Positions 10,209 through 63,411 of a stretch of 64,000 nucleotides of DNA are shown one piece after another; the first letter of the stretch is position 1; each line of letters opens with the position of its first letter. The notes under the pieces were generated by a model. It was not told where the DNA came from. It ran no database searches and was given only the letters and a program-made list of their open reading frames with translations. The position numbers and the translations under genes were made by a program. The stretch is from Marinobacter sp. SS13-12 (GTDB lineage Bacteria; Pseudomonadota; Gammaproteobacteria; Pseudomonadales; Oleiphilaceae). The DNA lies in NCBI RefSeq assembly GCF_030227115.1, contig NZ_JASSUA010000001.1, forward strand, positions 124,001 to 188,000, in the 5' to 3' direction.

Positions 10209-10850
10209 ATGCCTGACACTCCAACCGCACTGAAAGCCAGCTACCACCATGGTGACCTGCCACAACAGGCGCATCAGCTAGCTCTGGAAACACTTCGCGA
10301 ACACGGCGACTCCGCCATCAGCCTGCGCGCCCTGGCCAAACAGATCGGGGTCAGTGCCCCGGCGTTATACCGGCACTTTATCGACCGGGAAAGCCTGCTG
10401 GCAGAACTGGCCGTTACCGGCTTTGAAGCCCTGCAAAAGCGCCTGCTGGCAGTGGATCAATCGAGCCCCAGGCTGGCGTTGGTAGATATTGGCCTGGTGT
10501 ACGTATCTTTTGCACAGGACGAGCCCAATCTTTACCGGCTGATGTTTGGCGGGCGGGTGTTGCCCAAGGGTGTTCACCCGCGCCTGGACTCGGCGGGCAA
10601 GAGCGCGTTCCAGGTGCTGGAAGACACCATTGCCCGGGCCCAGCAGGCGGGGTACGTAAAGCCCATTCCCCTTTCACTGATGACCGCTGCCGCCTGGTCG
10701 CTGGTGCATGGGCTTTCGCAACTGACCATTGATGGCCATCTACCCAGTGCCAAAGTGGAACCCCACCTGGCGGAAGGCGTTGTCACTCTGCTTCTGGACG
10801 GCTCGCGCGCGAACAATAATGATCAACCTCACAAGGACACCACCTCATGA
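10209..10850 (+). CDS. TetR/AcrR-family repressor
   Basis: This 213-residue regulator has an N-terminal helix-turn-helix (ISLRALAKQIGVSAPALYRHFIDRESLLAELA, residues about 36-67). Its C-terminal ligand domain is typical of TetR proteins that carry a WHG-like motif (AAWSLVHGLSQLTIDG). It probably autoregulates through the palindrome ending two bases before its start codon. It overlaps the following oxidoreductase gene by four bases (ATGA at 10847-10850), so the two are co-transcribed and co-regulated. The inducer is unknown; a hydrophobic isoprenoid-like substrate of the partner enzyme is a guess. Confidence 0.9.
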   Translation: MPDTPTALKASYHHGDLPQQAHQLALETLREHGDSAISLRALAKQIGVSAPALYRHFIDRESLLAELAVTGFEALQKRLLAVDQSSPRLALVDIGLVYVSFAQDEPNLYRLMFGGRVLPKGVHPRLDSAGKSAFQVLEDTIARAQQAGYVKPIPLSLMTAAAWSLVHGLSQLTIDGHLPSAKVEPHLAEGVVTLLLDGSRANNNDQPHKDTTS

Positions 10851-12472
10851 GCAGCCCCAAACCCAGCACCATTCGTATCGGCCATCGTTACCGCGCCAAT
10901 CGCCTGAACGGCCCCTACGACGCCATTGTTATAGGCTCCGGCATCGGCGGGCTGACCACCGCCGCCTGCATGAGCAAACTGGGCAAGAAAGTCGTGGTGT
11001 TCGAGCAGCATTACACCGCCGGCGGATTCACCCACAGTTACGACCGCAACGGCTACGAGTGGGATGTGGGCGTGCACTACATCGGCGACGTGGGCGCAGA
11101 CCACACGCTGACCAAGCGCCTGTTCGACCATATTACTGATGGTCAACTGAAGTGGGCGCCGATGGACAGCCACTTCGACCGCATCTTCATCGGCGACCGC
11201 CATGTGGACCTGGTAGCCGGGCCGGACAACTTCAAGGCCGAACTGAAGAAGGCCTTCCCTGGTGAAGAAAAAGCCATCGACACTTACCTGGGTTACCTGA
11301 AGCAGGTGGCCAAAGCCATGCCGGGGCTGGTGATTGGCAAAGTGCTGCCCGACCTGGCCGCCAGCCCCCTGCGCAAGCTGGTCAACCGCACGGCACCTTC
11401 ATTCCTGAACCGGCCCACCCGTGAAGTACTGGAAGGTCTGACCAGCAACCAGGAGCTGATTGCCGTGCTCACCGGTCAATGGGGCGACAACGGTCTGCCA
11501 CCCGCGGAATCCAGCTTCATCATCCATGCGCTGATTGCACGCCATTATCTCTACGGTGGCTACTACCCCATCGGCGGCGCGTCGGAAATGGCCAGGACGA
11601 TCATCCCGGTCATCCAGCAGAGCGGCGGTGAGGTGTTCACCTACGCCGATGTGAAGGAAATCCTGATCGAAAAGGGCAAGGCGGTTGGTGTGCGCATGGC
11701 GGATGGTGAAGAGGTCCGCGCCCCGCTGGTGATCAGCAACGCCGGCGTGTTCAACACCTTCGACACGCTACTGCCTGAATCCGCACCCCACCGGGACTAT
11801 TACCAGCAGAAGCTGAAAACCGTGGAACGCTCCATGGCCAGCAACTGCCTGTACATTGGTCTGCAGGACACTGCCGAGAACCTGAAGCTACCGAAAACCA
11901 ACTACTGGATCTACCCCGGCGCCGATTATGAAAAGCAGGTGAGCGATTTCATGGCTGCACCCGACGACACCGATATTCCGCTGACGTACATCTCTTTTCC
12001 TTCCGCCAAGGACCCGAGCTTTGCCGAACGCTACCCCGGCCGCGCCACCATCGAGATTGTCGCTCCCGGGCCCTACGACTGGTACGAAGACTGGGCCGAC
12101 AAAACCTGGGGCAAGCGCGGCGAAGAGTACGAAGCCAAGAAGGAAGCCTACGCCCAGCGCCTGTTGGCCAAGCTGTACGAGAAGTTCCCGCACCTGGAAG
12201 GCAAGGTGGACTACTACGAGCTGTCCACGCCCCTGTCCACCGACTACTTCTGCCGCTACAGCAAGGGCGAGATCTACGGCCTGAACCACACCCCGAGCCG
12301 ATTCGAACAGGATTGGCTGAAGCCCAAAACCCGCATCCCCGGCCTCTACCTCACCGGCCAGGATGTGATGACCTGCGGCGTGGCCGGAGCCATGATTGGC
12401 GGGCTACTGGCGACAGTTGCGGTTAGTGGCCTCAAGGGGTTGCCGTTGGCGAAGAAGATGTTTGTGGGTTAG
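10847..12472 (+). CDS. NAD(P)/FAD oxidoreductase, carotenoid isomerase / retinol saturase-like
   Basis: The 541-residue protein begins with a dinucleotide-binding site (DAIVIGSGIGGLTTAACMSKLG) and the continuation VVFEQHYTAGGFTHSYDRNGYEWDVGVHYIGDVG. That is typical of the phytoene desaturase-like group containing CrtISO and all-trans-retinol 13,14-reductase. The C-terminal FAD closure is PGLYLTGQDVMTCGVAGAMIGGLLATVAV. No carotenoid synthesis genes are nearby, so reduction or isomerisation of another polyene or lipid is possible. It is co-transcribed with, and probably repressed by, the overlapping TetR gene. There is no signal peptide. Confidence 0.85.
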   Translation: MSSPKPSTIRIGHRYRANRLNGPYDAIVIGSGIGGLTTAACMSKLGKKVVVFEQHYTAGGFTHSYDRNGYEWDVGVHYIGDVGADHTLTKRLFDHITDGQLKWAPMDSHFDRIFIGDRHVDLVAGPDNFKAELKKAFPGEEKAIDTYLGYLKQVAKAMPGLVIGKVLPDLAASPLRKLVNRTAPSFLNRPTREVLEGLTSNQELIAVLTGQWGDNGLPPAESSFIIHALIARHYLYGGYYPIGGASEMARTIIPVIQQSGGEVFTYADVKEILIEKGKAVGVRMADGEEVRAPLVISNAGVFNTFDTLLPESAPHRDYYQQKLKTVERSMASNCLYIGLQDTAENLKLPKTNYWIYPGADYEKQVSDFMAAPDDTDIPLTYISFPSAKDPSFAERYPGRATIEIVAPGPYDWYEDWADKTWGKRGEEYEAKKEAYAQRLLAKLYEKFPHLEGKVDYYELSTPLSTDYFCRYSKGEIYGLNHTPSRFEQDWLKPKTRIPGLYLTGQDVMTCGVAGAMIGGLLATVAVSGLKGLPLAKKMFVG

Positions 12473-12491
12473 TTAATACCAATCTACCGTG

Positions 12492-12520
12492 CAGCCCTCA
12501 TCCACAGAGGTGATGGGCTG
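12492..12520. terminator. Imperfect hairpin between convergent genes
   Basis: CAGCCC (12492-12497) pairs with GGGCTG (12515-12520), extended by TCA/TGA across a one-base bulge. It fills most of the 56-base gap between the oxidoreductase stop and the end of the leftward nucleotidyltransferase gene. The stem is short and no T-run follows, so this is a weak terminator candidate. Confidence 0.35.
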
Positions 12521-12528
12521 AAGGGTAA

Positions 12529-13233
12529 CTATCCCGTTACTTTTTCCAGTCGCTCAAATAGATATTGCTCGCTTGGGACATCGCCCCGGACAGTTGACTG
12601 CACAAGCCATTCGAATTCGGGAGCTGCTAATAAATCCCTCAACTCCCCTGCGACAAACTCAACAATATCGGGCTCCCCCCGAAGGATCTCATCAACCAAC
12701 TCCTCTCGCCCGAAAAACAGGAGCAGCATATCCTCCAGATCGTGGCTAGCGCTGATATCTCCTTTTCCACGCCCGAGAAACGCTTCCAGCTTCGTTGCGA
12801 CAAAGCTCAATGGACTCACGATTCTTATATCAAACCGTTGATCTCCCAGCGTTACTTCGTGCCAGTTAGCAGTTTTGAGTGCGTGGCCATACCAACGGTT
12901 GGTATGCCCAAGAATGCCAGGATCGTCTGGCATGAAATCGACCCGTAATTCATCCAGAAAAAGAGCACAGGTTGGCGCATCCATATCCATCCTTTCAGTA
13001 AACCCCCGCTGCCGTAGTTTATCTTTGAAGACACTCCAACTGTGCGGTCCTATAACATCGACGATCAGGTCAACGTCCTTGGTGTGCCGCACATCTTCCT
13101 GTGTGGCCTCATCGGTTAACAGGAAAGTTGTGGTGCACCCTCCGACAAAGACTACCTCCTGCAAAAGGTCAGCACCCAGCTTGCTGGCTACCCAGGCCAA
13201 CATCTCCCGAGTCTTTTCATACCCAGTCGTCAT
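12529..13233 (-). CDS. Nucleotidyltransferase, AbiEii/MNT-like
   Basis: This 234-residue protein has the minimal-nucleotidyltransferase pattern: FVGGCTT (G31, G32), then KDVDLIVD with D53 and D55, then a third acidic strand RVDF with D99. The latter half (ATKLEAFLGRGKGDISASHDLEDMLLL) matches the Lys and Arg/Asp segment seen in AbiEii-type toxins. Such enzymes transfer nucleotides to tRNA or protein, or act as toxins in AbiE and MenA-type systems. Its gene overlaps the upstream winged-helix gene by four bases (ATGA at 13230-13233). The pair therefore has toxin-antitoxin architecture, although toxicity is not shown. All three catalytic acids are present, so it looks active. GC content is visibly lower than in neighbours. 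Confidence 0.75.
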   Translation of the reverse strand: MTTGYEKTREMLAWVASKLGADLLQEVVFVGGCTTTFLLTDEATQEDVRHTKDVDLIVDVIGPHSWSVFKDKLRQRGFTERMDMDAPTCALFLDELRVDFMPDDPGILGHTNRWYGHALKTANWHEVTLGDQRFDIRIVSPLSFVATKLEAFLGRGKGDISASHDLEDMLLLFFGREELVDEILRGEPDIVEFVAGELRDLLAAPEFEWLVQSTVRGDVPSEQYLFERLEKVTG

Positions 13234-13916
13234 AAATCTTTTGTTTCCCTTCGTAGTTGCTCGGCCGCCAGAGTGGTTTCACGAACGCTGCCAATGCGTA
13301 TTGCATCAGTCAGCGCGAGAAGGCCATATAGAAAGGGATCCCGGCGCACGGCATGGGGGACGCTCTTGTAGAGAGGCTCAACGGCCTGGCCTTTGGTTTT
13401 TCCATATGGATCGGGCCACACTGGCACCAACTCGCCGGGAGAACTTAATTCTGAAGCGAGGATTGGCGCAGAAAATGCTGTGGGTATGCCCCTGGTAACG
13501 GTACCCATCTGTGCAGGGAAGACGTAGCGAACAGCATGAACAATTAGCTCAACCAGAGCTTTCGTATTCGCTTTCGGCATCCCTGTCTTTCGGTCTGATC
13601 TGACCAACCCTACCTGCTTCATACGCTTAATGGAGTTGTTCACCTCCGTCTTCCCAATACCTGTTGATGAAGCAAGCGAACGCACGGAGTACCGTTGGGC
13701 CGTCAACTCAGGACTGACATCAATAGCATTCAAATCTGTATCAAGCGACACACCCAGATCACCTTCAAGCAACATATAGTCTTCTTCAATACTGTCCCAG
13801 CCTTCCCAGGAAGACTTGAGATATTCTTGCCTGGGAGGAACCAAGGACCGAAATTGCTGCTCATCCTTACTCAGACTTACCAGCTTCAGCAGAATTAGTA
13901 GATCTTGACTTTTCAA
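13230..13916 (-). CDS. Winged-helix regulator, candidate antitoxin partner
   Basis: The 228-residue protein starts at TTG 13916, with GAGGT five to six bases upstream; an in-frame TAA lies just before, so no longer start exists. Residues 1-15 and 74-106 form a MarR-like winged helix (YSVRSLASSTGIGKTEVNNSIKRMKQVGLVR), interrupted by an acidic segment at 17-73. The C-terminal part has motifs I recall from an unnamed conserved family: VHAVRYVFPAQMGTVTRGIPTAFSAP, VPVWPDPYGKTKGQAVEPLYKSVP and RRDPFLYGLLALTDAIRIGSVRE. Members are annotated hypothetical or MarR-like. As the first gene before an AbiEii-like enzyme it is the likely antitoxin or autorepressor (inference). A 7-bp repeat leader precedes it. 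Confidence 0.65.
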   Translation of the reverse strand: MKSQDLLILLKLVSLSKDEQQFRSLVPPRQEYLKSSWEGWDSIEEDYMLLEGDLGVSLDTDLNAIDVSPELTAQRYSVRSLASSTGIGKTEVNNSIKRMKQVGLVRSDRKTGMPKANTKALVELIVHAVRYVFPAQMGTVTRGIPTAFSAPILASELSSPGELVPVWPDPYGKTKGQAVEPLYKSVPHAVRRDPFLYGLLALTDAIRIGSVRETTLAAEQLRRETKDL

Positions 13917-13935
13917 CGCCGACCTCGCTTATTTA

Positions 13936-14026
13936 TGTCCACCGTCCATCGTCCATCGTCCATCGTCCATCGTCCATCGTCCATCGTCCATCGTCCATCG
14001 TCCATCGTCCATCGTCCACTGTCCGC
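13936..14026. repeat. Heptanucleotide tandem repeat, ten perfect copies
   Basis: CGTCCAT occurs ten times without a break from 13943 to 14012. It is flanked by degenerate copies TGTCCAC (13936), CGTCCAC (14013) and TGTCCGC (14020). On the coding (minus) strand the unit reads ATGGACG, so every copy carries an ATG and successive ATGs cycle through all three frames. The array lies 20 bases before the winged-helix gene and downstream of its predicted promoter, so it would be transcribed as leader. A perfect GTCCGCGGAC palindrome closes it at 14021-14030. The 171-base gap holds nothing else but the promoter. Confidence 0.95.
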
Positions 14027-14039
14027 GGACTACGGACAC

Positions 14040-14067
14040 ATTCTCTTAAAAAACTGTCCATTGTCAA
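14040..14067 (-). promoter_or_regulatory. Predicted promoter of the winged-helix/nucleotidyltransferase operon
   Basis: On the minus strand a perfect -35 TTGACA (14067-14062) is followed after 16 bases by GAGAAT (14045-14040), four of six matches to the -10 consensus. Transcription would start near 14033, placing the whole heptamer array in the 5' leader. The prediction rests on these hexamers alone. Confidence 0.5.
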
Positions 14068-14087
14068 CTCCTGACTAGCCCTGACAG

Positions 14088-15044
14088 TTAGTCACAACAG
14101 GCCAGCAACCGGGTAGCGTGCTCCCGCAAGGCATCCTTCAGGCCCTCTGGTTTCAGGATGGTAAACCGGAACGGGAGCTGCGCCAGCCACCAGGCGAACC
14201 ACTCGAAGCTATCCGTTCGTGTGGTGAGTAGCAGCCCGTCATCACGCTGTTCGAATCCATCCGCACAGGATGAATGGAAATCAAACACGGTGGCGGCAGA
14301 CTCACGGTCTGTGTGCAGCAACAGCGACACCTCATGGGTTCGGCCCCAGGACAGGAAGCTCTCGCTCAGGAATTCCGCCGCATCAAAATCCGACGGCCGC
14401 TGGAAGGTGTCAGGCACCAGGTGAACGCTGCTGATGCGGTCCAGCCGAAATGACCGCATGGCGTTCCTGAGGTGGCAAAAGCCGGTGAGATACCAGCGCC
14501 CCTGGCGGAACACCAGGCCATAGGGATCAACGCTGCGGTCGATGCCTCCGCGATCCGGGGAATGATAGGTAAATCCAACTCTACGCATTGCTTCTGTGGC
14601 AACCGACAGCGTTTGCAGCGCGCGGTCGTCCAGACTGGGCTCTCCCCGGGGCAGGATTACCCGGGTGGTATCGCTGACACCACGCACCCGCTTTTTCAGG
14701 TTAGCCGGCATCACCCGTTCCAGCTTCGCCTGCACACTGGCGATGGCCGGCGCCGCATCCGTCAGCCCTAGCTGCCGGGCTGCCAGCAACCCCAGGGACA
14801 CTGCCAGGGTTTCTTCCTCGGTGAACATCATCGGTGGCAACTTGAAACCCGCCACCAACCGGTAACCGCCGTAACGCCCCTGCTCTGTCATTACCGGTAT
14901 GCCCAGTTCTTCCAGCACCGTGATGTAGCGCCTGATCGTTCGCCGGTCCACACCGAGGCGTTCTGCCAGCTCCGCCCCGCCTATCTGGCCATGGGTCTGC
15001 AATAATTCCAACACGGTTAGCACACGGGTTGTAGGACCAGACAT
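14088..15044 (-). CDS. YafY-type WYL-domain transcriptional regulator
   Basis: The 318-residue protein has an N-terminal HTH_11 winged helix (TRVLTVLELLQTHGQIGGAELAERLGVDRRTIRRYITVLEELG), a linker with MMFTEEETLAVSLGLLAARQ, and a WYL domain. The WYL region has VGFTYHSPDRGG, SVDPYGLVFRQGRWYLTGFCH and RSFRLDRI. WYL domains bind nucleic-acid or nucleotide ligands and couple them to DNA binding. The gene is divergent from the glutathione S-transferase gene (152-base gap), which it may control. This subclass is commonly found next to small stand-alone enzymes. Confidence 0.9.
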   Translation of the reverse strand: MSGPTTRVLTVLELLQTHGQIGGAELAERLGVDRRTIRRYITVLEELGIPVMTEQGRYGGYRLVAGFKLPPMMFTEEETLAVSLGLLAARQLGLTDAAPAIASVQAKLERVMPANLKKRVRGVSDTTRVILPRGEPSLDDRALQTLSVATEAMRRVGFTYHSPDRGGIDRSVDPYGLVFRQGRWYLTGFCHLRNAMRSFRLDRISSVHLVPDTFQRPSDFDAAEFLSESFLSWGRTHEVSLLLHTDRESAATVFDFHSSCADGFEQRDDGLLLTTRTDSFEWFAWWLAQLPFRFTILKPEGLKDALREHATRLLACCD

Positions 15045-15196
15045 CGTCGCCTTCCTCCTGGCAGCATTTTCCGGTTATTTACACGAATAATTGTATTGTC
15101 TGATTTATTTAGGACCGATTCTCACCTAGTTACAAATTAATCTGATCCCGCAGTACCTCACACCACCTGGAACACTGACTGGAAAAGGAGATCAAC

Positions 15197-15832
15197 ATGT
15201 CAGAACTCACGTTTTATACCCACCCCATGTCCCGCGGGCGCGTTGTACGCTGGATGCTGGAAGAAGTCGGCATTCCCTACACCGTTGAGACCATGGAATT
15301 CGGCCCGGACATGAAAACCCCGGAATACCTGGCCATCAACCCCATGGGCAAGGTGCCCGCCATCAAGCACGGCAACACCGTGGTGACCGAAGTGGCGGCC
15401 ATCTGCGCCTACCTGGCAGACCAGTTTCCGGACAGGAAGCTGGCGCCACCGCCGCAATCCCCTGAACGCGGCGCTTACTACCGCTGGCTGTTTTTCATGG
15501 CAGGCCCGTTTGAAATGGCAACGAGTGCACTGGCCTACGGCTGGAAAATCGATAGCGACAACGTACAGGCCGTCGGCTGTGGTCGCGTGGAAGATCCCAT
15601 CAATACCCTGGAGAAAGTACTGGGCCAGACGCCCTATATCTGTGGCGATCAGTTCACCGCTGCGGATGTGCTGGTCAGCAGCTATCTCTGGTGGGAAACG
15701 ATGCAGAAGAACATCCCGCCGAACGAGGTCTTCCAGGACTACATCAAGCGTACGGAAAGCAGACCGGCCGCCAGGCGTGCCAATGAACTGGACGATGCGC
15801 TGGCAGAAAAGATGAAACCTGAAACGGCGTGA
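15197..15832 (+). CDS. Glutathione S-transferase family protein
   Basis: The 211-residue soluble protein has a thioredoxin-like N-terminus (LTFYTHPMSRGRVVRWMLEEVGIPYTV). The Ser of PMSRGR is in the active-site position, and the cis-proline and glutathione motifs are NPMGKVPAIKHGNTVVTEVAAICAYLAD. A C-terminal helical domain holds the family N-capping motif as QFTAADVLVSSYLWW. It probably conjugates or reduces electrophiles with glutathione. AAGGAG lies just upstream of the ATG. Control by the divergent WYL regulator is likely from position. Confidence 0.92.
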   Translation: MSELTFYTHPMSRGRVVRWMLEEVGIPYTVETMEFGPDMKTPEYLAINPMGKVPAIKHGNTVVTEVAAICAYLADQFPDRKLAPPPQSPERGAYYRWLFFMAGPFEMATSALAYGWKIDSDNVQAVGCGRVEDPINTLEKVLGQTPYICGDQFTAADVLVSSYLWWETMQKNIPPNEVFQDYIKRTESRPAARRANELDDALAEKMKPETA

Positions 15833-53750: not shown

Positions 53751-55937
53751 TCACGACAACAATCTTGCCAGTCCTGATGCCCTGATCACCCCGCGGCCCA
53801 CGGCCTCTTTGAGTACACCTTGCTGGCTCACCACCAGGCTTAGCCAGTGACGGGCACGGGTGATGCCGGTGTAGACCAGCTCCCGGGTCAGCACCGGGGT
53901 CAGGCGGTCCGGAATCACCAGGCAGGCGTGGGTAAACTCGGAGCCCTGGGACTTGTGCACCGTCATGGCGTAGACGGTCTCCACTGACTGCAACCGGCTT
54001 GGGGATATCCACCGGATGGTTCCACTGCCGTCACTGGACGGAAAGGCCACCCGCAGGGTATCGACCGACTCGCCGGCGTCGTTGCGATCCCAGGGCACAC
54101 TCAGGGTGACACCAATATCGCCGTTCATCAGGCCCAGATTATAGTCGTTTCCGGTGATCAGTACCGGACGGCCCTCGTACCAGCCCTCGGTTCGATCGAC
54201 AAGGCCGGCACTGCACAGGCGCCCGGCGATTTCCCGGTTAAGCCCTTCCACCCCGAATGGGCCCTGGCGCAGCGCACACAGCACCTTGAAGTGGTTAAAC
54301 CCTTCGAGCACCTGGGTGGCCCAGTGGTCCCATTGTTCGCGCCCTTCGGTTTCACCGGCGGCGCCGGGTTTCTGGTCGCGGATGATACGCAGGTAATGGC
54401 CATAACCCACGGGCGGGTCGACCGGCTCGTTATTGACCAGACGCCCCTCACCATTGTTCCGGAAACGTTCCCGGCTGCCTGTGAGGGCGTGGTTCGCCAA
54501 CAGCTCCGTGCCCGGTGCGTTTTCGCCAGCGCGGGCAGAACCACTATCCGCCGTGAGCCAGGCCACGTCTTCAAAGGCCTGTTCCCGGCACTGGCTGATC
54601 AGCTGCCTGTCCAGTTTGCCTGCGTTGGTGGCTGTGGCCAGCACGCCGATACCGCTGTGTTCGTCAAAGCGATAGCTCTTGCGGAGCATGGCAACCGCCT
54701 GGTCCAGGGGCAGGCCTTCGGTATCCGTCAACGGCGATGGCAACTGGCATCCGGTGACCGATTCCAGCCATTGCGCCGTTTCCGGCAGGTAGTGGGCAGC
54801 CTCGGCACGCTGACAGAGCTCCCCCAGCACCGCGCCGGCATCCACCGAGGCCAGCTGGTCCTTGTCGCCCAACATGATCAGCCGGGCCTTATGGGGCAAC
54901 GCCGCGAACACCGAGGCCATCAGGTCCACATCGACCATCGAGGCTTCATCGATGACCAGAATATCCAGCGGCAGAGGGTGATCCTCGTTATGACGAAACG
55001 TCCGCGAACCTGGCCGGCTACCCAGTAACCGGTGCAGTGTGGTGACCTGGGTGGGAATAGCGCTCCTGTCGGGCCGGCCCGGCAGCCGGTCCAGGGGCAG
55101 GCGATCCACCGCACCACCGATGGACTCGCTCAGCCTTGCAGCGGCCTTGCCCGTAGGTGCCGACAGGCGAATACGCAGGTAGGGGCTGACACCATCAGCG
55201 CCAGCCGACTCACGGGCCACCGACTGCAGGGCCGCCAGCAGGTTCACCACCGTGGTGGTCTTGCCAGTACCGGGGCCGCCGGTGATCACGCTGAACCGGT
55301 TCCGGGCTGCAAGAGCACAGGCGATTTTCTGATAATCCGGCTCCTGGCCAGTCCCGAACAGGGTATCCAGCGCACGGGCCAACAGGCTTGAATCCACCAA
55401 CTCCGTGCGGTCTGCCAGACGCACCCGTATGCCGGCGGCAATGGCCTGCTCGTAGCGCCAGAACCGGCGCAGGTATAACCGGGAGCCATCCAGTATCAGT
55501 GGAGTCGCCTGCTCGCCGTCACCCACTGCACTGCTTTGCCCGAGCAGCGCGACAAGTTCGCCCGGGCTGACGTCGGCAAACAGGTCAGAAGGCCGCAGGC
55601 TATCAGCCGGAAGTGCGCCCGCGCCTTCCGGGGGCAGCACCAGCGTGGGCTCGGTGTCGCGGCAAAGGTGGTTTATATCCAGGCAGACATGTCCACGCCC
55701 CACCTGGTGAGAAACCATGGCGGCCAGCAATGCCAGCATGGCCGACGGTTGCTCACCCTGTTCACTGACAATGTCGCAGACAAAAGCCGCAAAAGCATGA
55801 TCCAGGGCACGGATCCAGTCGCGCTCGACCCAGACGTCCAACAGAGTCAGCGCGTCAGGAGCACTGCCAGGCAAGGGTGCCGTGTGCGCCGGCACTTCGT
55901 CGAACAGGTCCTGGATGTATCCGCTTTCCCCCGTCAT
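53751..55937 (-). CDS. recD: Exonuclease V subunit RecD
   Basis: The 728-residue SF1 helicase has Walker A GGPGTGKTT (220-228), a DEASMVD Walker B and GDKDQLASVDAGAVLG, followed by C-terminal VYAMTVHKSQGSEF and VYTGITRARHWL. It is the fast 5'-to-3' motor of RecBCD. It overlaps recB by four bases (ATGA at 55934-55937) and closes the recC-recB-recD operon. Confidence 0.95.
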   Translation of the reverse strand: MTGESGYIQDLFDEVPAHTAPLPGSAPDALTLLDVWVERDWIRALDHAFAAFVCDIVSEQGEQPSAMLALLAAMVSHQVGRGHVCLDINHLCRDTEPTLVLPPEGAGALPADSLRPSDLFADVSPGELVALLGQSSAVGDGEQATPLILDGSRLYLRRFWRYEQAIAAGIRVRLADRTELVDSSLLARALDTLFGTGQEPDYQKIACALAARNRFSVITGGPGTGKTTTVVNLLAALQSVARESAGADGVSPYLRIRLSAPTGKAAARLSESIGGAVDRLPLDRLPGRPDRSAIPTQVTTLHRLLGSRPGSRTFRHNEDHPLPLDILVIDEASMVDVDLMASVFAALPHKARLIMLGDKDQLASVDAGAVLGELCQRAEAAHYLPETAQWLESVTGCQLPSPLTDTEGLPLDQAVAMLRKSYRFDEHSGIGVLATATNAGKLDRQLISQCREQAFEDVAWLTADSGSARAGENAPGTELLANHALTGSRERFRNNGEGRLVNNEPVDPPVGYGHYLRIIRDQKPGAAGETEGREQWDHWATQVLEGFNHFKVLCALRQGPFGVEGLNREIAGRLCSAGLVDRTEGWYEGRPVLITGNDYNLGLMNGDIGVTLSVPWDRNDAGESVDTLRVAFPSSDGSGTIRWISPSRLQSVETVYAMTVHKSQGSEFTHACLVIPDRLTPVLTRELVYTGITRARHWLSLVVSQQGVLKEAVGRGVIRASGLARLLS

Positions 55938-58900
55938 GCTGCCTTCTCCTGTTGGCCACGAAACAGCCGGTCCAGTTGCTCGATCAGTTCACGGGGCGGC
56001 CGCTCAGTGAAGGCGCCGGCGCCAGGTGCGTCACATCCTCGCAGGAACAGGTAGACCGCGCCGCCAACGTGGGTGTCGTAGTCATAGTCCGGCAGTCGCG
56101 ACTTCAGCAGGCGATGCAGTGCCAGCAGGTAAATGACGTACTGCAGGTCATATCGATGTTCGAGGATTTTCTCTCTCATCACGTCGTTCGTATAAGCCTG
56201 GTCATCCTCCCCCAGGACGTTGGACTTGTAGTCCAGCACGTAGTAGCGGCCCCCATATTCGAACACCAGGTCAATAAAGCCCTTGAGCATGCCGTTAAAA
56301 GTGGTTTCGTGGGCTTCCGGCCGGTTCTCGCCATTCAGGGTGTGCTGGCGAACCAGTTTGTCCATGGTGCGGGTATTCACCTGGTGGCTTTCGAACCAGA
56401 ATTCCAGCTCCGGTCGGAAAGTTTCCAGACCTGCCAGGGAGCAGGTCCCCCCGCTATCCGGCAGGGGAATGTCCGTCGTGACCAGCGTGTGGACCCAGGT
56501 TTTCAGGGTCTCCGCCCAGTCGCTCCAGTTGCGCAGCTTGCAGCGACGTTCCAGCAGTTCATGGAGGTCATCCGGTGTGTCGGCTACCTTTCGGAATCCC
56601 TGGGTGGCGCACCACTCCAGAATATCGTGAAGGAAGGTGCCCGGGCCTGCCCCCCTGGGGAAGCTGTGCTGGTTGAAGGGCAGCGGGCCTTTGGCCAATG
56701 CCTCGGTTGAGGCGGCGATATCGGTGCCTGTGTTTTCATATTCCTCCCGCAGGTTCTCCTGTTCCGGGTCCTCACTGGCGGGGGCAAAATCGTCACCAAT
56801 ACGACTGCGGGCGCCATAGGTGATAGCGGAGTAGCTGGCAATCCACCAGTTTTCCTTCGCTTCACGCACGGGCTCCAGAGCCTTACCAAGCTCTGGCTCC
56901 GCTTCACCGGGATAAACATCGTCCCCGGGCTCAGGCACCGGCGCCACCTTGATCGCGGGCTCACCGGCGGCCATAGTCTGCAGGAAGGGCATCAGATCAG
57001 TGTCGTCCTCACTGGCCTCACGGCCCACCAGGTGCCCCAGGCCGCTCTGGCGCCAGCCTTTGATACCGGCGGCGCCTACCCAGGTGGCGTGGCGGGAGCG
57101 GGTCAGGGCGACATAGAATTTGCGGATATCCTCACCCAGTCGTTCACGGTCAGCCCGGGCGAGAGTGTCGTCATCCGGTTCCAGGGAAATACGGAGTTTG
57201 CCCTCATCGTCGTGGTACTTGATGAAGGCCTGGTTCGGTTTCTCCTCACGGAATTCGGTGGCGAACGGCAGGAACACCAGCGGATATTCCAGACCTTTGG
57301 ACTTGTGCACGGTGACCACCTTGACCAGCCCGGCGTCACTTTCCAGGCGCATGGTGCGGTGTTCGTCCTCGTCGTCGGATTGCCGCAGCATCTCGGTGTA
57401 GTGATGGATCAGGGCATGTTCACCGTCCAGCTGCTGGCTGTCCTGCTGCAGCAGTTCGGCAATATGCAGGATGTCAGTCAACCCGCGCTCACCGTCCGGC
57501 CCCGCCAGCAATTTGGCCGGCACTTCGTAGTCCATGAGCAGGCGTCGCAGCATCGGCAGCACGCCCTGCTGTTGCCAGAGTTCCCGGTAGCCCTGGAAGC
57601 GGTTGATCTCCCTGTCCAGCGCGTTCTCGTCGCTGAGCAGCCGGTCCAGGTCCTGGTAGGCCAGGCCCATGGTGGGTGTGGCCAGCGCCGCGCGAATCAG
57701 TGACAGCTGGCCGGGCTCGGCGCAGGCCTGCAGCCATTGCAATAACTCCATCGCCTGCGCCGATTGCAGCACCGAATTGCGGTCTGACAGGTACACACTA
57801 CGAATGCCCCGTGCACTCAATGCCCGCCTGACGGCATCCGCCTCATCACGCTTGTTCACCAGGATGGCAATGTGTTCTGGTCGCAACTGCTCCAGCGGCT
57901 TGCCGTCAGCCCCGAACCCGGCCTCACTGGCCTGCCCCATATTCAGCAGGCGGGCAATCTCCGCCGAGCAGGCATCCGACATCGCCTCCCTGCCCGCTTC
58001 CTTGGCAATAGGTCGGTCATCCGCCAGGGTCCAGAACGTCAGTGGTGGTTGTGGCTGGCCCCGCACGCACCACTGCTGGTCCGTGCCCCTGGCATTCACC
58101 GGGCTGAACGGCAGCGGGTTGTCTTCACCGGTACGGAACAGGAATGCCCCTTCCGGCAGCGACTGGTCCGCCCGGGCAAACACTCGGTTGACGCCATCCA
58201 CCATGGCAACAGCGGAGCGGAAGTTGGTGCCCAGGGTGTAGGTGCGGCTGCTGACGGCACGGCGGGCGTCCAGGTAGGTATGGATATCCGCACCCCGGAA
58301 ACCATAAATGGCCTGTTTGGGGTCGCCGATCATCAGCAGGCTGGTGTCCTGATCATTACTGGCCACCCGGTAGATGCGATCAAAGATCCGGTACTGGACC
58401 GGGTCGGTGTCCTGGAATTCGTCAATCATCGCCACCGGAAACTGGCGGCGAATGGTCTCGGCCAGTCGCCCGCCCTGGGGGCCGCCAAGGGCTTCATCCA
58501 GGCGGGTGAGCAGGTCGTCAAAGCCCATACTGGCGAGACGCTGTTTTTCACTGTCCAGACGTTTGGCAATCCAGCAGGCAGCGTGGTTTAGGATGTCCGG
58601 TTTTGCCACCGGCATGGCTTTCAGGGCCGGTTTGAGCTCGGCGATGGCGTCCATGGCCGGATGATGGGGCGGCTCGTCATCGCCGGTCCATTTTTCCGCG
58701 AAGGCGTCGGCTTCCAGGGTGTCGAAGCCTTTGGGGCGACTTCTGGACAGGAAATCATGGGGTTCGGCAGCGTCGGTGGTGGCCCATTCCCGCAGGCAGT
58801 CCACGGCCTTCTGGATGGAATTTTTAGTGCCGCCGTGCAATGGCTTTGGTTTGCGCTTTGCGGTTTCCACCAGTAACTCATCCAGCTCATCACACCACGC

Positions 58901-59641
58901 GGGCCAGGGGGCTTTCAGCTCCTTGAGTCTCTGCTCACGCCGGGTTTTCGCGTGCTCCGCGGCCGCCACCGGATCACGCTCTGGCACAGGCAGGGCATCG
59001 ACATGAGGCAACAGGTTACGAACGGACTGGCGCAGGCTTTCCGGGGTTTTCCAGTTGTCCAGCACCTCGCTCATCAACTCAGGCGGCAGCGGATACACGA
59101 AGGTGCGCCAGTAATCCCGCACCACGTTGTCCAGCAGATCGGTCTGGCTGGTTTCCAGGGTCTGGCGAAACAGGCTGCCGCTGTCGAAGGCGTGTTCGCT
59201 GAGCATGCGGTTGCACCAGCCATGGATGGTGGAAACAGCCGCTTCGTCCATCCATTCCGCGGCCAGCAGCAATTTGCGACGACAGGCCGGCCAGTCCGCC
59301 GGTGGACACGCATTGCGTAGGTTGACCAGCGGGTCTTTCGCCGTTGCGGCGGTATCCACGGTATCCGGTTGCACTGCAAACAGGGCGGCGGCTTCAGTCA
59401 GGCGCGCGCGGATACGGTCCCGCAGTTCCTTGGTGGCGGCTTCGGTAAAGGTGACCACCAGCAGGTTGGGGGGCATGATGCCCTCTGCCAGGGGCTCTTC
59501 GGCAGTGCGGTGCCCGAGCACCAGGCGCACATAGAGCAGCGCCAGGGTAAAGGTCTTGCCGGTGCCGGCGCTTGCTTCGATCAGCTGGCTGCCGCGCAGT
59601 GGTAGTGTCAGGGGGTCGAGTTTGCGAACGCTTCCGGTCAT
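55934..59641 (-). CDS. recB: Exonuclease V subunit RecB
   Basis: The 1235-residue protein starts with a UvrD-type helicase (Walker A ASAGTGKT, residues 24-31; MIDEFQDTDPVQYRIF; VVTVHKSKGLEYPLVF). It ends with a nuclease domain bearing GFIDLVFEYGGRYYVLDYKSN (D1124, D1137, K1139) and the Q-motif LQYVIYLLAL. Length and order are normal. RecB supplies the 3'-to-5' helicase and the nuclease that responds to Chi. It overlaps recC and recD by four bases each. Confidence 0.96.
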   Translation of the reverse strand: MTGSVRKLDPLTLPLRGSQLIEASAGTGKTFTLALLYVRLVLGHRTAEEPLAEGIMPPNLLVVTFTEAATKELRDRIRARLTEAAALFAVQPDTVDTAATAKDPLVNLRNACPPADWPACRRKLLLAAEWMDEAAVSTIHGWCNRMLSEHAFDSGSLFRQTLETSQTDLLDNVVRDYWRTFVYPLPPELMSEVLDNWKTPESLRQSVRNLLPHVDALPVPERDPVAAAEHAKTRREQRLKELKAPWPAWCDELDELLVETAKRKPKPLHGGTKNSIQKAVDCLREWATTDAAEPHDFLSRSRPKGFDTLEADAFAEKWTGDDEPPHHPAMDAIAELKPALKAMPVAKPDILNHAACWIAKRLDSEKQRLASMGFDDLLTRLDEALGGPQGGRLAETIRRQFPVAMIDEFQDTDPVQYRIFDRIYRVASNDQDTSLLMIGDPKQAIYGFRGADIHTYLDARRAVSSRTYTLGTNFRSAVAMVDGVNRVFARADQSLPEGAFLFRTGEDNPLPFSPVNARGTDQQWCVRGQPQPPLTFWTLADDRPIAKEAGREAMSDACSAEIARLLNMGQASEAGFGADGKPLEQLRPEHIAILVNKRDEADAVRRALSARGIRSVYLSDRNSVLQSAQAMELLQWLQACAEPGQLSLIRAALATPTMGLAYQDLDRLLSDENALDREINRFQGYRELWQQQGVLPMLRRLLMDYEVPAKLLAGPDGERGLTDILHIAELLQQDSQQLDGEHALIHHYTEMLRQSDDEDEHRTMRLESDAGLVKVVTVHKSKGLEYPLVFLPFATEFREEKPNQAFIKYHDDEGKLRISLEPDDDTLARADRERLGEDIRKFYVALTRSRHATWVGAAGIKGWRQSGLGHLVGREASEDDTDLMPFLQTMAAGEPAIKVAPVPEPGDDVYPGEAEPELGKALEPVREAKENWWIASYSAITYGARSRIGDDFAPASEDPEQENLREEYENTGTDIAASTEALAKGPLPFNQHSFPRGAGPGTFLHDILEWCATQGFRKVADTPDDLHELLERRCKLRNWSDWAETLKTWVHTLVTTDIPLPDSGGTCSLAGLETFRPELEFWFESHQVNTRTMDKLVRQHTLNGENRPEAHETTFNGMLKGFIDLVFEYGGRYYVLDYKSNVLGEDDQAYTNDVMREKILEHRYDLQYVIYLLALHRLLKSRLPDYDYDTHVGGAVYLFLRGCDAPGAGAFTERPPRELIEQLDRLFRGQQEKAA

Positions 59642-62600
59642 GACGCTTTCTCCCTGTTAGCGCCGCTGGTCTTTGCCCGACCCGCCTGCTCCGCATGCCA
59701 GAACGGTTCGTACAACGTCGACACCAGTTGCACGAACTGCTCACTGGCAAGCAACTGTTCGAACTCCGGGTAAGCCCTGTGCAGGTAGCCGCGATCCCGG
59801 GCAAGGGCTTTGTTATAGGCCTCCTCGGCTTTTTGTAGCGCTTTGTCTTCATTGCCCTCGCCCCTGGCGGGATACAGAGCCCGCAGATAGGCGAAGGCTG
59901 CCCCGGACTCCACCGGCAGCGGCCGTGTCTGGCCCTGCATCCAGGCATCCAGTATCCTCGCCAGGCATTCCCCGGCGGCAGCACTGTCCATGGGCAACAG
60001 GTTGACGACCCGTTGTTCTTCTTTGGCGATGACCAGGGTATGGAAAGCCTCAAAGCGCAGGTTGCCCGCCAGGTGCGTCACCCAGTGGTCGAGCAGGGCC
60101 GGGAATCGCAGCTGGCGAGAGCCCCCGGACCCTTCCAGAAGGTTGCTGCTGGCAATCACTACCCTGCACACCGCGCCATCCGGCCGGGTGCGCAGATCGC
60201 CAAGACGGTCGCTGACAGCCACGGAATCTTCACCACGCTGATGGTGGTAGTCGAAGCCCGTCTCGTCTTCAATGGCTTCAGGCCAGAGCGCCAGGGCTTC
60301 CTGGTAGCGCCGGTGCAGGTCAGGCATTCGGCTTTCCAGCTGCCGGGTCAGAGCGTACTCCGTCAGTCCCATGCCCAGCTCGCCCCGGCGGGCCATGCTG
60401 GCAAGGGAGCTGTCCAGACGTTGCTGCAGTTCATCTTCGTTATCGGCTTTCATCACTGCCTGACGAATCAGCTCATCCTCCAGGCGCCAGTGTTGCAAGC
60501 CATCCATGGCGAACGCTTCGTTGTCGGTATCCAGGCTCTCCACATCGGTAAAACGTACCTGTAGTCGACGCTGATAAAAGATCTCTACCGGCCGTTTAAG
60601 GAAGGCCCCTATCTCACTCAGGGTGATCGGGTCTGCCGGCACCAGATAGCTCAGCACCGGCTGTTCCGACTCAGTTGCCCGGGACTGGTGCGCACTGAGC
60701 CATTCGCTGTCGTAGGTGAACAGCCGACGCGCGGACGGAACGTCGTTCACATCAGGAAAGTACTCGCGGCTGAAGGGCTGCAGCGGGTGTTCAATGGTCA
60801 GGGCAACGGAGGCCGACTCGTCGGATGCCGCCACCTGCCAGACCGCATCAAGGTGATCCCGGAGCTGGCTGACCAGTACCGATGGCGGACGTTCCGAGTC
60901 ATCGCGAATACTGCGCCCTACCCAGCTGATATAAAGCTGCTCCCTTGCGGACAGCAGGGCTTCCAGAAACAGGTAACGGTCGTCTTCCCGGCGGGAACGG
61001 TCGCCGGGCCGGTAATCCAGGGCCATCAGGTCAAAATCCACTGGCGGGCGGGAGCGGGGGTAATCGCCATCGTTCATGCCCAGCAGGCACACGTGCCGGA
61101 ACGGGATGGCCCGCATCGGCATCAGCGTGGCAAAATTGACCTTGCCGGCGAGGAAGCGCTGGTTGAGACCACCCTCCTCCAACCCTTCCAGCAGGATTTC
61201 GCGAACGATATTCAGGGGCAGCTCTACCTCTCCCATGCCGGCGCTGTCGCAGTCCTGAAGCCACTGCTCCGCCTGCCGGAGCAAACGGTTCACCAGCAGC
61301 AGCTCGTCGTCCGACAGGTCATCGAAGAAACGTTCCAGTATCGATTGCAGCAGGTCCAGCCAGCCTACCGGTGTTGCGGTAGCCCGGAGTTCGCGCCAGA
61401 GATCTTCCAGCCGGTCGATGAAGCGGCACAGATTGCCGGCCACACTGGCCTGCAGGCCGCCAATTTCCTCGAAGGGCTCAATGCCCTGCCAGGGGTCGTC
61501 GCGGCCGGTGCCATAGCCCAGCAACATCCGCCGCAGGCCGGCCTGCCAGGTGTTGCGCTCCAGACCATCGGGCAGGTCGAGGCTACTGCGGTGGTCACTG
61601 TGCAGGCCCCAGCGGATATTGGCGCCCTCCACCCACTGACGCACCAGGGGCAGGTCGCTTTCGGCAATGCCGAACCGGCTCCTGACCGCCGGCACTTCCA
61701 GCAGGCTGATGATCTCGCTGACGCCAAAACGGCTTTCCGGCAGGGCCATCAGGGTATCCAGCGCAATCAATACCGGCTGACGGTGACGCTGACCCTGGTC
61801 GGAAATGGTGAATGGGATATAGCGGCGGGACGACGACGGGTAGCGGCCAAAGACTGCCTGGATGTGGGGTGCGTAGGTATCCACATCCGGCACCATGACA
61901 ATCACATCCCGGGGCCGAAGTTCCGGGTTGCTGTTGAACGCCGCCAGCAACTGATCATGGAGAATTTCCACTTCCCGCTGCGGGCTGTGGGCGTTGTGGA
62001 ACACCACGGAATCGTCCCGGAACGGATCCAGGCTGCGCTTCTGGTCCAGCATTTCCTGTTGCGATGTGAGCGTGCGTATATCGTTCTGGATCTGGTGCAG
62101 CAGCACTGGCTGTTCCGGTTCGCCGTGAGGCGTGAAGATATCAATCCGGCCGTCGGGCGTGGCGATGCGGCTTTTGTACGCCTCCGGGTTATCAAACTCG
62201 TCCAGCAAGCGAATGTAGTCCCGCCCCTGCTTGCCCCAGGCGGCCAAAAGCGGGTTGGCGTGCTGGTGCAGATCATCAGGGTCGGTCAGTTGTGCCAGTT
62301 TCGGGTGGGCCAGCCCGCGCTTGCGATCGGCATTCAGCAGGTCACGATCACTGATAATGTCCGCCCAGTAGAATTCACTCGGATTGTGGACGCAGAGCAC
62401 CACCTGGCTGACCCGACTGAGGATCGATAAAGCCTCCAGTGCCTGTTTCGGCAGCGAAGAGACACCAAAAACCACAATACGTTGGGGCAGGTCAGACGGC
62501 CGATCAGCCGCGGTGAGCCTCTGTCCCTCCTCCATGAACCGGGTGTGGATGCGAGAGCGGCTGGTACCCGCAAGTTCGCCAACATCCTCCACCAGTTTTC

Positions 62601-63201
62601 GCCACAGCACTGGCTGCCAACGCAACTCTTCACCCAGCTCGCGGTGCTCACCCCGCGCCATTTGCAGTCGGTCGTGCCCCGCTTCCCAGTCCGCCAGCCA
62701 GTCGGCACGGAACACCTGGTACTGGTCGAACAGGTCGGCAATCTTGCCCGCCAACTGGTAGCGGCGTGTTTCGGTATCCGCGCCGGCCATGAATCGCTGC
62801 AGCGGGGCAAACACGTCGTCCTCGGCAATCAGATCCGGCAGCAACCGGAACAGGCGCCAGACCAGGCGGGACTTGTCGAAAGGCGACTGTTCCGGCACCC
62901 CGGCAGACGTCAACACTGCCCGATAGGCCTGCCAGATAAAGCGGGCAGGAAACAGGAAATCCATACCTGCGGCAATGCCCATGCCACCGCCATCGCCGCT
63001 TTTGCCAGGGTCAGACGAATCTTCCGCCAGGGCAAGCTTCAGCCACTGGGCAATGCCGTTGCTCTGCACCAGAAAGGTTTCACTTTCCAGGGGTGGCAAG
63101 GGGCTGTTCCGACAGATCCAGACCACGGCCCGACGCAGGTCTTCGAGGTGGTTCGCATGGATGGCGTGAAAGCCGGGCTCGATGGTTGGCGCTGCTGGCA
63201 T
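59638..63201 (-). CDS. recC: Exonuclease V subunit RecC
   Basis: ATG 63201 (MPAAPTIEPGFHAIHANHLE) is chosen; a longer frame begins with TTG at 63237 but lacks a better ribosome site. The 1187-residue protein starts with the RecC helicase-like fold (ETFLVQSNGIAQWLKLALAE) and retains FRHVCLLGMNDGDYPRSRPPVDFDLM in the middle. RecC is a degenerate helicase/nuclease that recognises Chi and holds the complex together. It is the first gene of recCBD, with ATGA overlap with recB. Confidence 0.94.
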   Translation of the reverse strand: MPAAPTIEPGFHAIHANHLEDLRRAVVWICRNSPLPPLESETFLVQSNGIAQWLKLALAEDSSDPGKSGDGGGMGIAAGMDFLFPARFIWQAYRAVLTSAGVPEQSPFDKSRLVWRLFRLLPDLIAEDDVFAPLQRFMAGADTETRRYQLAGKIADLFDQYQVFRADWLADWEAGHDRLQMARGEHRELGEELRWQPVLWRKLVEDVGELAGTSRSRIHTRFMEEGQRLTAADRPSDLPQRIVVFGVSSLPKQALEALSILSRVSQVVLCVHNPSEFYWADIISDRDLLNADRKRGLAHPKLAQLTDPDDLHQHANPLLAAWGKQGRDYIRLLDEFDNPEAYKSRIATPDGRIDIFTPHGEPEQPVLLHQIQNDIRTLTSQQEMLDQKRSLDPFRDDSVVFHNAHSPQREVEILHDQLLAAFNSNPELRPRDVIVMVPDVDTYAPHIQAVFGRYPSSSRRYIPFTISDQGQRHRQPVLIALDTLMALPESRFGVSEIISLLEVPAVRSRFGIAESDLPLVRQWVEGANIRWGLHSDHRSSLDLPDGLERNTWQAGLRRMLLGYGTGRDDPWQGIEPFEEIGGLQASVAGNLCRFIDRLEDLWRELRATATPVGWLDLLQSILERFFDDLSDDELLLVNRLLRQAEQWLQDCDSAGMGEVELPLNIVREILLEGLEEGGLNQRFLAGKVNFATLMPMRAIPFRHVCLLGMNDGDYPRSRPPVDFDLMALDYRPGDRSRREDDRYLFLEALLSAREQLYISWVGRSIRDDSERPPSVLVSQLRDHLDAVWQVAASDESASVALTIEHPLQPFSREYFPDVNDVPSARRLFTYDSEWLSAHQSRATESEQPVLSYLVPADPITLSEIGAFLKRPVEIFYQRRLQVRFTDVESLDTDNEAFAMDGLQHWRLEDELIRQAVMKADNEDELQQRLDSSLASMARRGELGMGLTEYALTRQLESRMPDLHRRYQEALALWPEAIEDETGFDYHHQRGEDSVAVSDRLGDLRTRPDGAVCRVVIASSNLLEGSGGSRQLRFPALLDHWVTHLAGNLRFEAFHTLVIAKEEQRVVNLLPMDSAAAGECLARILDAWMQGQTRPLPVESGAAFAYLRALYPARGEGNEDKALQKAEEAYNKALARDRGYLHRAYPEFEQLLASEQFVQLVSTLYEPFWHAEQAGRAKTSGANREKAS

Positions 63202-63411
63202 ACCTGCTCTGTGTCGTCGTCCGGGGTAAGAAAGCAAAGCCTATCACAAGTCTGGACGGATTCCGGCCGGGGCCCTGAAACCAAATCCCGCACCGTTTCG
63301 GGGCAGCTCTCAGCCATTAGTTCTTTTATTCCGAATATTTACCGTATTCTGCCCAAAGCTGGCGATTCATGAAAATCTATTCACTCAATTTCTTGCGAAA
63401 ACAGCATTGTT

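Follow-up and report, generated by a model that had tools for sequence, protein, structure and literature searches.

Here we report on a 64,000-nucleotide stretch of the Marinobacter sp. SS13-12 genome (hereafter the window), in which two overlapping, horizontally acquired genes, A and B, are probably a toxin-antitoxin pair of the nucleotidyltransferase type that regulates its own expression, with A as the proposed autorepressor and antitoxin. The gene pair is an already catalogued candidate: A matches the PADLOC-DB v2 family PDC-M21A (E = 5e-77, covering 1-224 of 228 amino acids) and B matches PDC-M21B (E = 1.2e-81, 1-233 of 234), PDC standing for 'phage defence candidate' (PMC11514479). New are the operator upstream of A, the amplification of that operator in the window and a possible phospho-switch. 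The name PDC-M21 was found in no paper of the literature searched, and NCBIfam yielded nothing for B.

A first-pass annotation, made from the letters alone, had proposed a winged-helix gene overlapping by ATGA a gene for an AbiEii-like nucleotidyltransferase, and both minus-strand open reading frames (ORFs) with that overlap are indeed present (Table 1). The aspartates that it had singled out in B (D53, D55 and D99) are identical in 121 of 121 alignment rows (1.00), as are K148 and D165, the alignment comprising the window protein and 120 homologues among the matches listed. B has a MenT-like nucleotidyltransferase fold and A a winged helix-turn-helix (wHTH), the comparison rows for A spanning mainly residues 1-171, which match the winged helix. 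Both motifs noted in A are conserved, the first at V166 (0.89), W167 (0.99), P168 (0.89) and D169 (0.98), the second at P181 and L182 (0.98 each) and K184 (0.86). With 1167 protein matches to A and 2000 to B at E <= 1e-3, the observation is more than chance. No AbiEi family matches A at E <= 1, in agreement with the earlier view that A was not recognisable as an AbiEi; its family is not, however, an unnamed one, being listed in PADLOC. The AbiEii likeness claimed for B stands for the fold and the catalytic residues and fails at the Pfam AbiEii cut-off. Taken together, the earlier interpretation is supported in part: it holds as far as the letters go, with the qualification that the pair was already a listed candidate; it included neither the PADLOC listing nor the third gene of many relatives, the operator and the 11.7-copy heptamer array upstream of A.

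Table 1. Position, strand and description of the features discussed, in window coordinates
Feature	Position	Strand	Remark
Gene B, MenT/AbiEii-like nucleotidyltransferase (PADLOC PDC-M21B)	12529..13233	-	234 aa, ATG start
Gene A, winged-helix protein with C-terminal domain (PADLOC PDC-M21A)	13230..13916	-	228 aa, TTG start
GGAC half-sites (13), in register every 7 nt	13937..14024	-	first two form the operator right arm, followed by 11 leader heptads
TRF heptamer array, 11.7 copies	13937-14018	-	operator's right half-site repeated in register
Candidate operator, 4/4 half-sites	14014..14037	. (minus-strand sequence GTCCGTAGTCCGCGGACAGTGGAC)	conserved upstream of A
TTGACA, candidate -35 box	14062..14067	-	promoter by position only; starts 30 nt before operator
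Inserted stretch between both flanking genes	12473..14087	.	about 11-19 nt there in G003, G020 and G023
Amine-oxidase/FAD-type oxidoreductase	10847-12472	plus	neighbour on B side
WYL regulator	14088-15044	minus	neighbour on A side

A conserved candidate operator and its expansion in the window

Upstream of A lies the pattern GTCC-N3-GTCC-N2-GGAC-N3-GGAC, which we assign as a candidate operator because it is conserved in that place. Its frequency was taken over 85 loci (80 genome loci, four plasmid loci and the window) and holds for this clade, since the loci were chosen by likeness to the window's B: four half-sites are present in 65/85, three in 17/85 and fewer in three (L041, L062 and L088), with a median of 18 nt between the operator end and the start of A. 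A pair of half-sites spaced by seven was found upstream in 81/85 loci, against a mean of 0.76 in shuffles (max 3) and 0.85 at random places (max 5). TTGAC occurs 25-40 nt before the operator in 51/82 loci, in all 51 at 28-31 nt, compared with 1.4 in shuffles (max 5). The simplest reading of this arrangement is an operator placed over the transcription start, to which A would bind.

With at most one mismatch the genome holds the operator at a single place, and the idea of a wider regulon was accordingly rejected. The exact pattern occurs in 4/299 genomes of a sample drawn across the phylum, namely the carriers G000, G099 and G320 and the non-carrier G151, which has no A among the ORFs there; 27 genomes of that sample carry A and B, many of them belonging to other A clades or having imperfect operator sites. 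Eight loci of other A clades (L139-L141 and L145-L149) show, by eye, different phased repeats ahead of the A start (ATTCC/GGAAT or TTCGCGAA-like), and this suggests that operator specificity changes with the A clade. The pattern was also met in 114 viral stretches, probably by chance, as a profile search found A, B or C in 0/114.

Two GTCC are followed in the window by 13 GGAC (2+13). The operator lies 97 nt from the start of A, which equals 20 nt plus 11 heptads. The arrangement is 2+2 in 63/82 loci, and above that the same count holds only the window and L077 (2+3); five GGAC were seen by eye in L084.

Distribution, mobility and decay of the module

Of 410 stretches in genome contigs that were found to encode a relative of B, the best 80 were fetched, and in 80/80 of these an A ORF stands directly upstream of B. 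B was present in 28 and A in 30 of the 299 phylum genomes, adjacent to each other in 27; the one genome with B only (G162) is a marginal case (E = 4e-6), and A only was found in G062, G066 and, marginally, G198. In a second sample of 293 genomes from the order, 18/18 full-length B have an adjacent A, while G399, the second place in G428, G470 and G565 gave marginal B matches only, probably unrelated. Four loci of one family (L131-L134, in G367, G466, G394 and G443) hold a lone A amid genes that we read as rluB-, scpA/B- and rluA-like, and this A is perhaps a domesticated regulator. The E. coli genomes gave no DNA match to the module.

Within the genus, 4/124 genomes including the window's have a homologue, the other three being 47-52% identical. 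The neighbours are unrelated to the pair, as had been noted (Table 1), and the lower GC content also claimed is a modest dip, the pair lying at 0.49-0.54 in 500-base windows and the shown flanks ranging from 0.54 to 0.63. Among four genomes of the same genus, the WYL gene stands 11-19 nt from the FAD gene in G003, G020 and G023 and on another contig in G017; in view of the first three, the 1.6 kb module is a clean insertion. The genome closest at the flank (G016, locus L120; 93.8%) is without window positions 12471-15795, and therefore the stretch beyond the module is also variable. A phage origin was considered and rejected: no B match was found among 50,697 phage records, and 14 viral-contig stretches with the B pattern included none encoding a relative.

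B matches were found on 116 plasmid records, 46 of them predicted conjugative, and the window copy stands alone among ordinary genes. These two facts would fit an addiction module maintained by mobile DNA with no anti-phage role, a reading that is compatible with the toxin-antitoxin half of our explanation and that we hold to be possible, if on balance doubtful. Against it, PADLOC lists the family among defence candidates, and known defence families occur near the module in relatives. The latter is a weak test: at E <= 1e-10, 149 module-near proteins matched 93 PADLOC families, 149 proteins at >=4.5 kb matched 86, and 146 proteins from elsewhere in 20 carrier genomes matched 20. We give this enrichment in defence islands little weight because families rather than proteins were counted, a single housekeeping RecB matching 45 families (E <= 1e-5). 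The scan covered 149/172 and 149/161 candidate proteins, taken from ORFs picked by length, and left out nine near-copy loci and proteins longer than 700 aa. Towards the window's right end (53751-63237, minus strand) lies a recC-, recB- and recD-like set (Exonuc_V_gamma/RecC_C; UvrD and PDDEXK; RecD_N).

Several observations weigh against a toxin-antitoxin pair. A occurs without B in six genomes (G062, G066, G367, G394, G443 and G466); a second, partial B in G132 (G132:C28) has no A match beside it, and a partial B in G464 of the order sample lacks a listed A. The window has no convincing -10 hexamer. B scores 16.9 bits against the gathering cut-off of 22.5 for Pfam AbiEii (PF08843), and for that reason we did not file it as a member of that family. 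Decay is likewise equivocal. Eight loci combine a broken B with an intact A (G556, G320, G156, G148, G050, G636, L100 and L064), and the converse holds in two, L041, where A is reduced to its C-terminal half, and L056, where A is interrupted at two N; G164 and G181, cut by contig ends, were not counted. At 8:2 the decay runs in the direction expected for a toxin, is not clearly one-sided and is not significant on its own, and some of the breaks may be assembly errors. The remnant in L041 (7625-7975), a C-terminal half of A beside an intact B with the winged helix and the operator gone, is as expected if that half of A is the antitoxin.

Proposed mechanism, a third gene and known systems

For B, which is MenT/AbiEii-like in fold and catalytic residues, the most likely activity is the addition of nucleotides at tRNA 3' ends, which would halt translation, as may be reasoned from MenT, MenT1 being known to add CMP at tRNA 3' ends (PMC10435456). 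A would act as a repressor, its winged helix binding the GTCC/GGAC operator, which is phased by heptads and lies a short way downstream of the promoter, and as an antitoxin, its C-terminal domain silencing B either through binding or through triggering phosphorylation at T51. The benefit would probably be phage defence through growth arrest, or the upkeep of mobile DNA.

A third gene, C, matching PDC-M21C and encoding a PP2C phosphatase, follows B in 53/80 loci, its matches being short or split in three of the 53 (L060, L065 and L068), and is absent from 27/80. Residues D27, D44, D119 and D188 (1.00) and D214 and D215 (0.98), which we take to be the PP2C metal ligands, are conserved in 54 C sequences, those of at least 200 aa from the 80 genome and four plasmid loci. 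Where visible, the gene that follows B in the 27 loci without C varies by locus, close relatives excepted, and several of the contigs stop shortly past B. The tree built from 83 B proteins, in which the window's B sits on a long branch, requires at least 13 changes between the AB and ABC states, 8 of them forced by well-supported branches. Given this uneven presence and the repeated changes, AB is the core and C accessory. We describe the window copy as an AB-only form because no C lies beside its B (the nearest gene comes 57 bases after B) and the genome has only a general PP2C elsewhere (E = 7.9e-4). In an Agrobacterium plasmid, the A-B-C operon is followed by a Lit-like peptidase (L032, 11460-12404; PADLOC Lit at E = 1e-19; Pfam Peptidase_U49).

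The operon phosphatase raises a narrower form of the mechanism, in which A drives auto-phosphorylation of B at T51 (off) and C removes the phosphate (on), the window copy having lost or never had the eraser. MenA1 induces auto-phosphorylation of MenT1 at T39, two residues before D41, and thereby silences it (PMC11375011), and the B profile aligns T51, D53 and D55 with the T-x-D-x-D of MenT1 (T39, D41 and D43), weakly (E = 0.087); K148 and D165 were matched to K137 and D152 on the basis of order and conservation alone. For MenT3/TglT the authors state that reversal depends on an as yet unknown phosphatase, the effect of PstP being slight (PMC7205606). The conserved PP2C of the A-B-C operon is an obvious candidate for rearming. 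What lowers the odds is that T51, together with D53, D55, K148 and D165, is as invariant in 28 AB rows as in 57 ABC rows, barring a gap in one row, so the conservation of T51 may serve catalysis, the T39A mutant of MenT1 being less active (PMC11375011); the absence of C from 27/80 loci and from the window speaks the same way. We therefore regard this form as unlikely, and as slightly less credible its extension, a self-contained wHTH-nucleotidyltransferase-PP2C switch whose mark is erased, for example, on phage infection, with the AB form of the window relying through its 13-heptad array on transcriptional control tuned by array slippage. Within the toxin-antitoxin reading, C, which some two thirds of the relatives retrieved carry in the operon, might rearm the toxin, and the window copy would depend on the loss of A or on another phosphatase. 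That B instead transfers nucleotides to a protein or some small molecule, with A just regulating it, gains from the A-only loci and is nevertheless improbable, as MenT1 stands well above the comparators favouring a non-toxin role (14.4) and the overlapping two- or three-gene form, the mobility and the sporadic spread are toxin-antitoxin-like.

Work on TglT/MenT3 raised the question of the rearming phosphatase (PMC7205606), and an enzyme, its partner and a PP2C in one operon make it directly testable. If true, the phospho-switch operon would join to a nucleotidyltransferase toxin a phosphatase devoted to reactivating it, an arrangement that we found nowhere in print in the literature searched. 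The conserved operator supplies a concrete regulatory model for a defence candidate, and the window offers a natural operator expansion with which to study the way the number of half-sites tunes such an operon.

In AbiEi/AbiEii (type IV, COG5340/DUF1814), as in the window, a winged-helix partner is encoded upstream and the genes overlap; unlike there, B falls under the Pfam AbiEii cut-off and A has no AbiEi family match. SanaTA resembles the pair in having an AbiEii-type enzyme with a small partner upstream, and was rejected as the same system because in hhalign comparisons its profiles resembled neither A nor B (probabilities of 0.5 and 0.9 percent); the locus compared is presumably that of Shewanella sp. 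ANA-3. Autorepression has been described for AbiE (PMC7205606). MenA1 of MenAT1 is small and without a winged helix, unlike A, whereas MenA3 of MenAT3 (TglT-TakA) combines a winged helix with a C-terminal domain (PMC11375011), no family match tying it to A; the excerpts available mention no operon phosphatase for either MenAT system, in contrast to M21. With the three-protein candidate PDC-M21 (A, B and C) the window shares full-length A and B matches, gene order and overlap, and differs in the missing C gene and the amplified right half-site of its operator.
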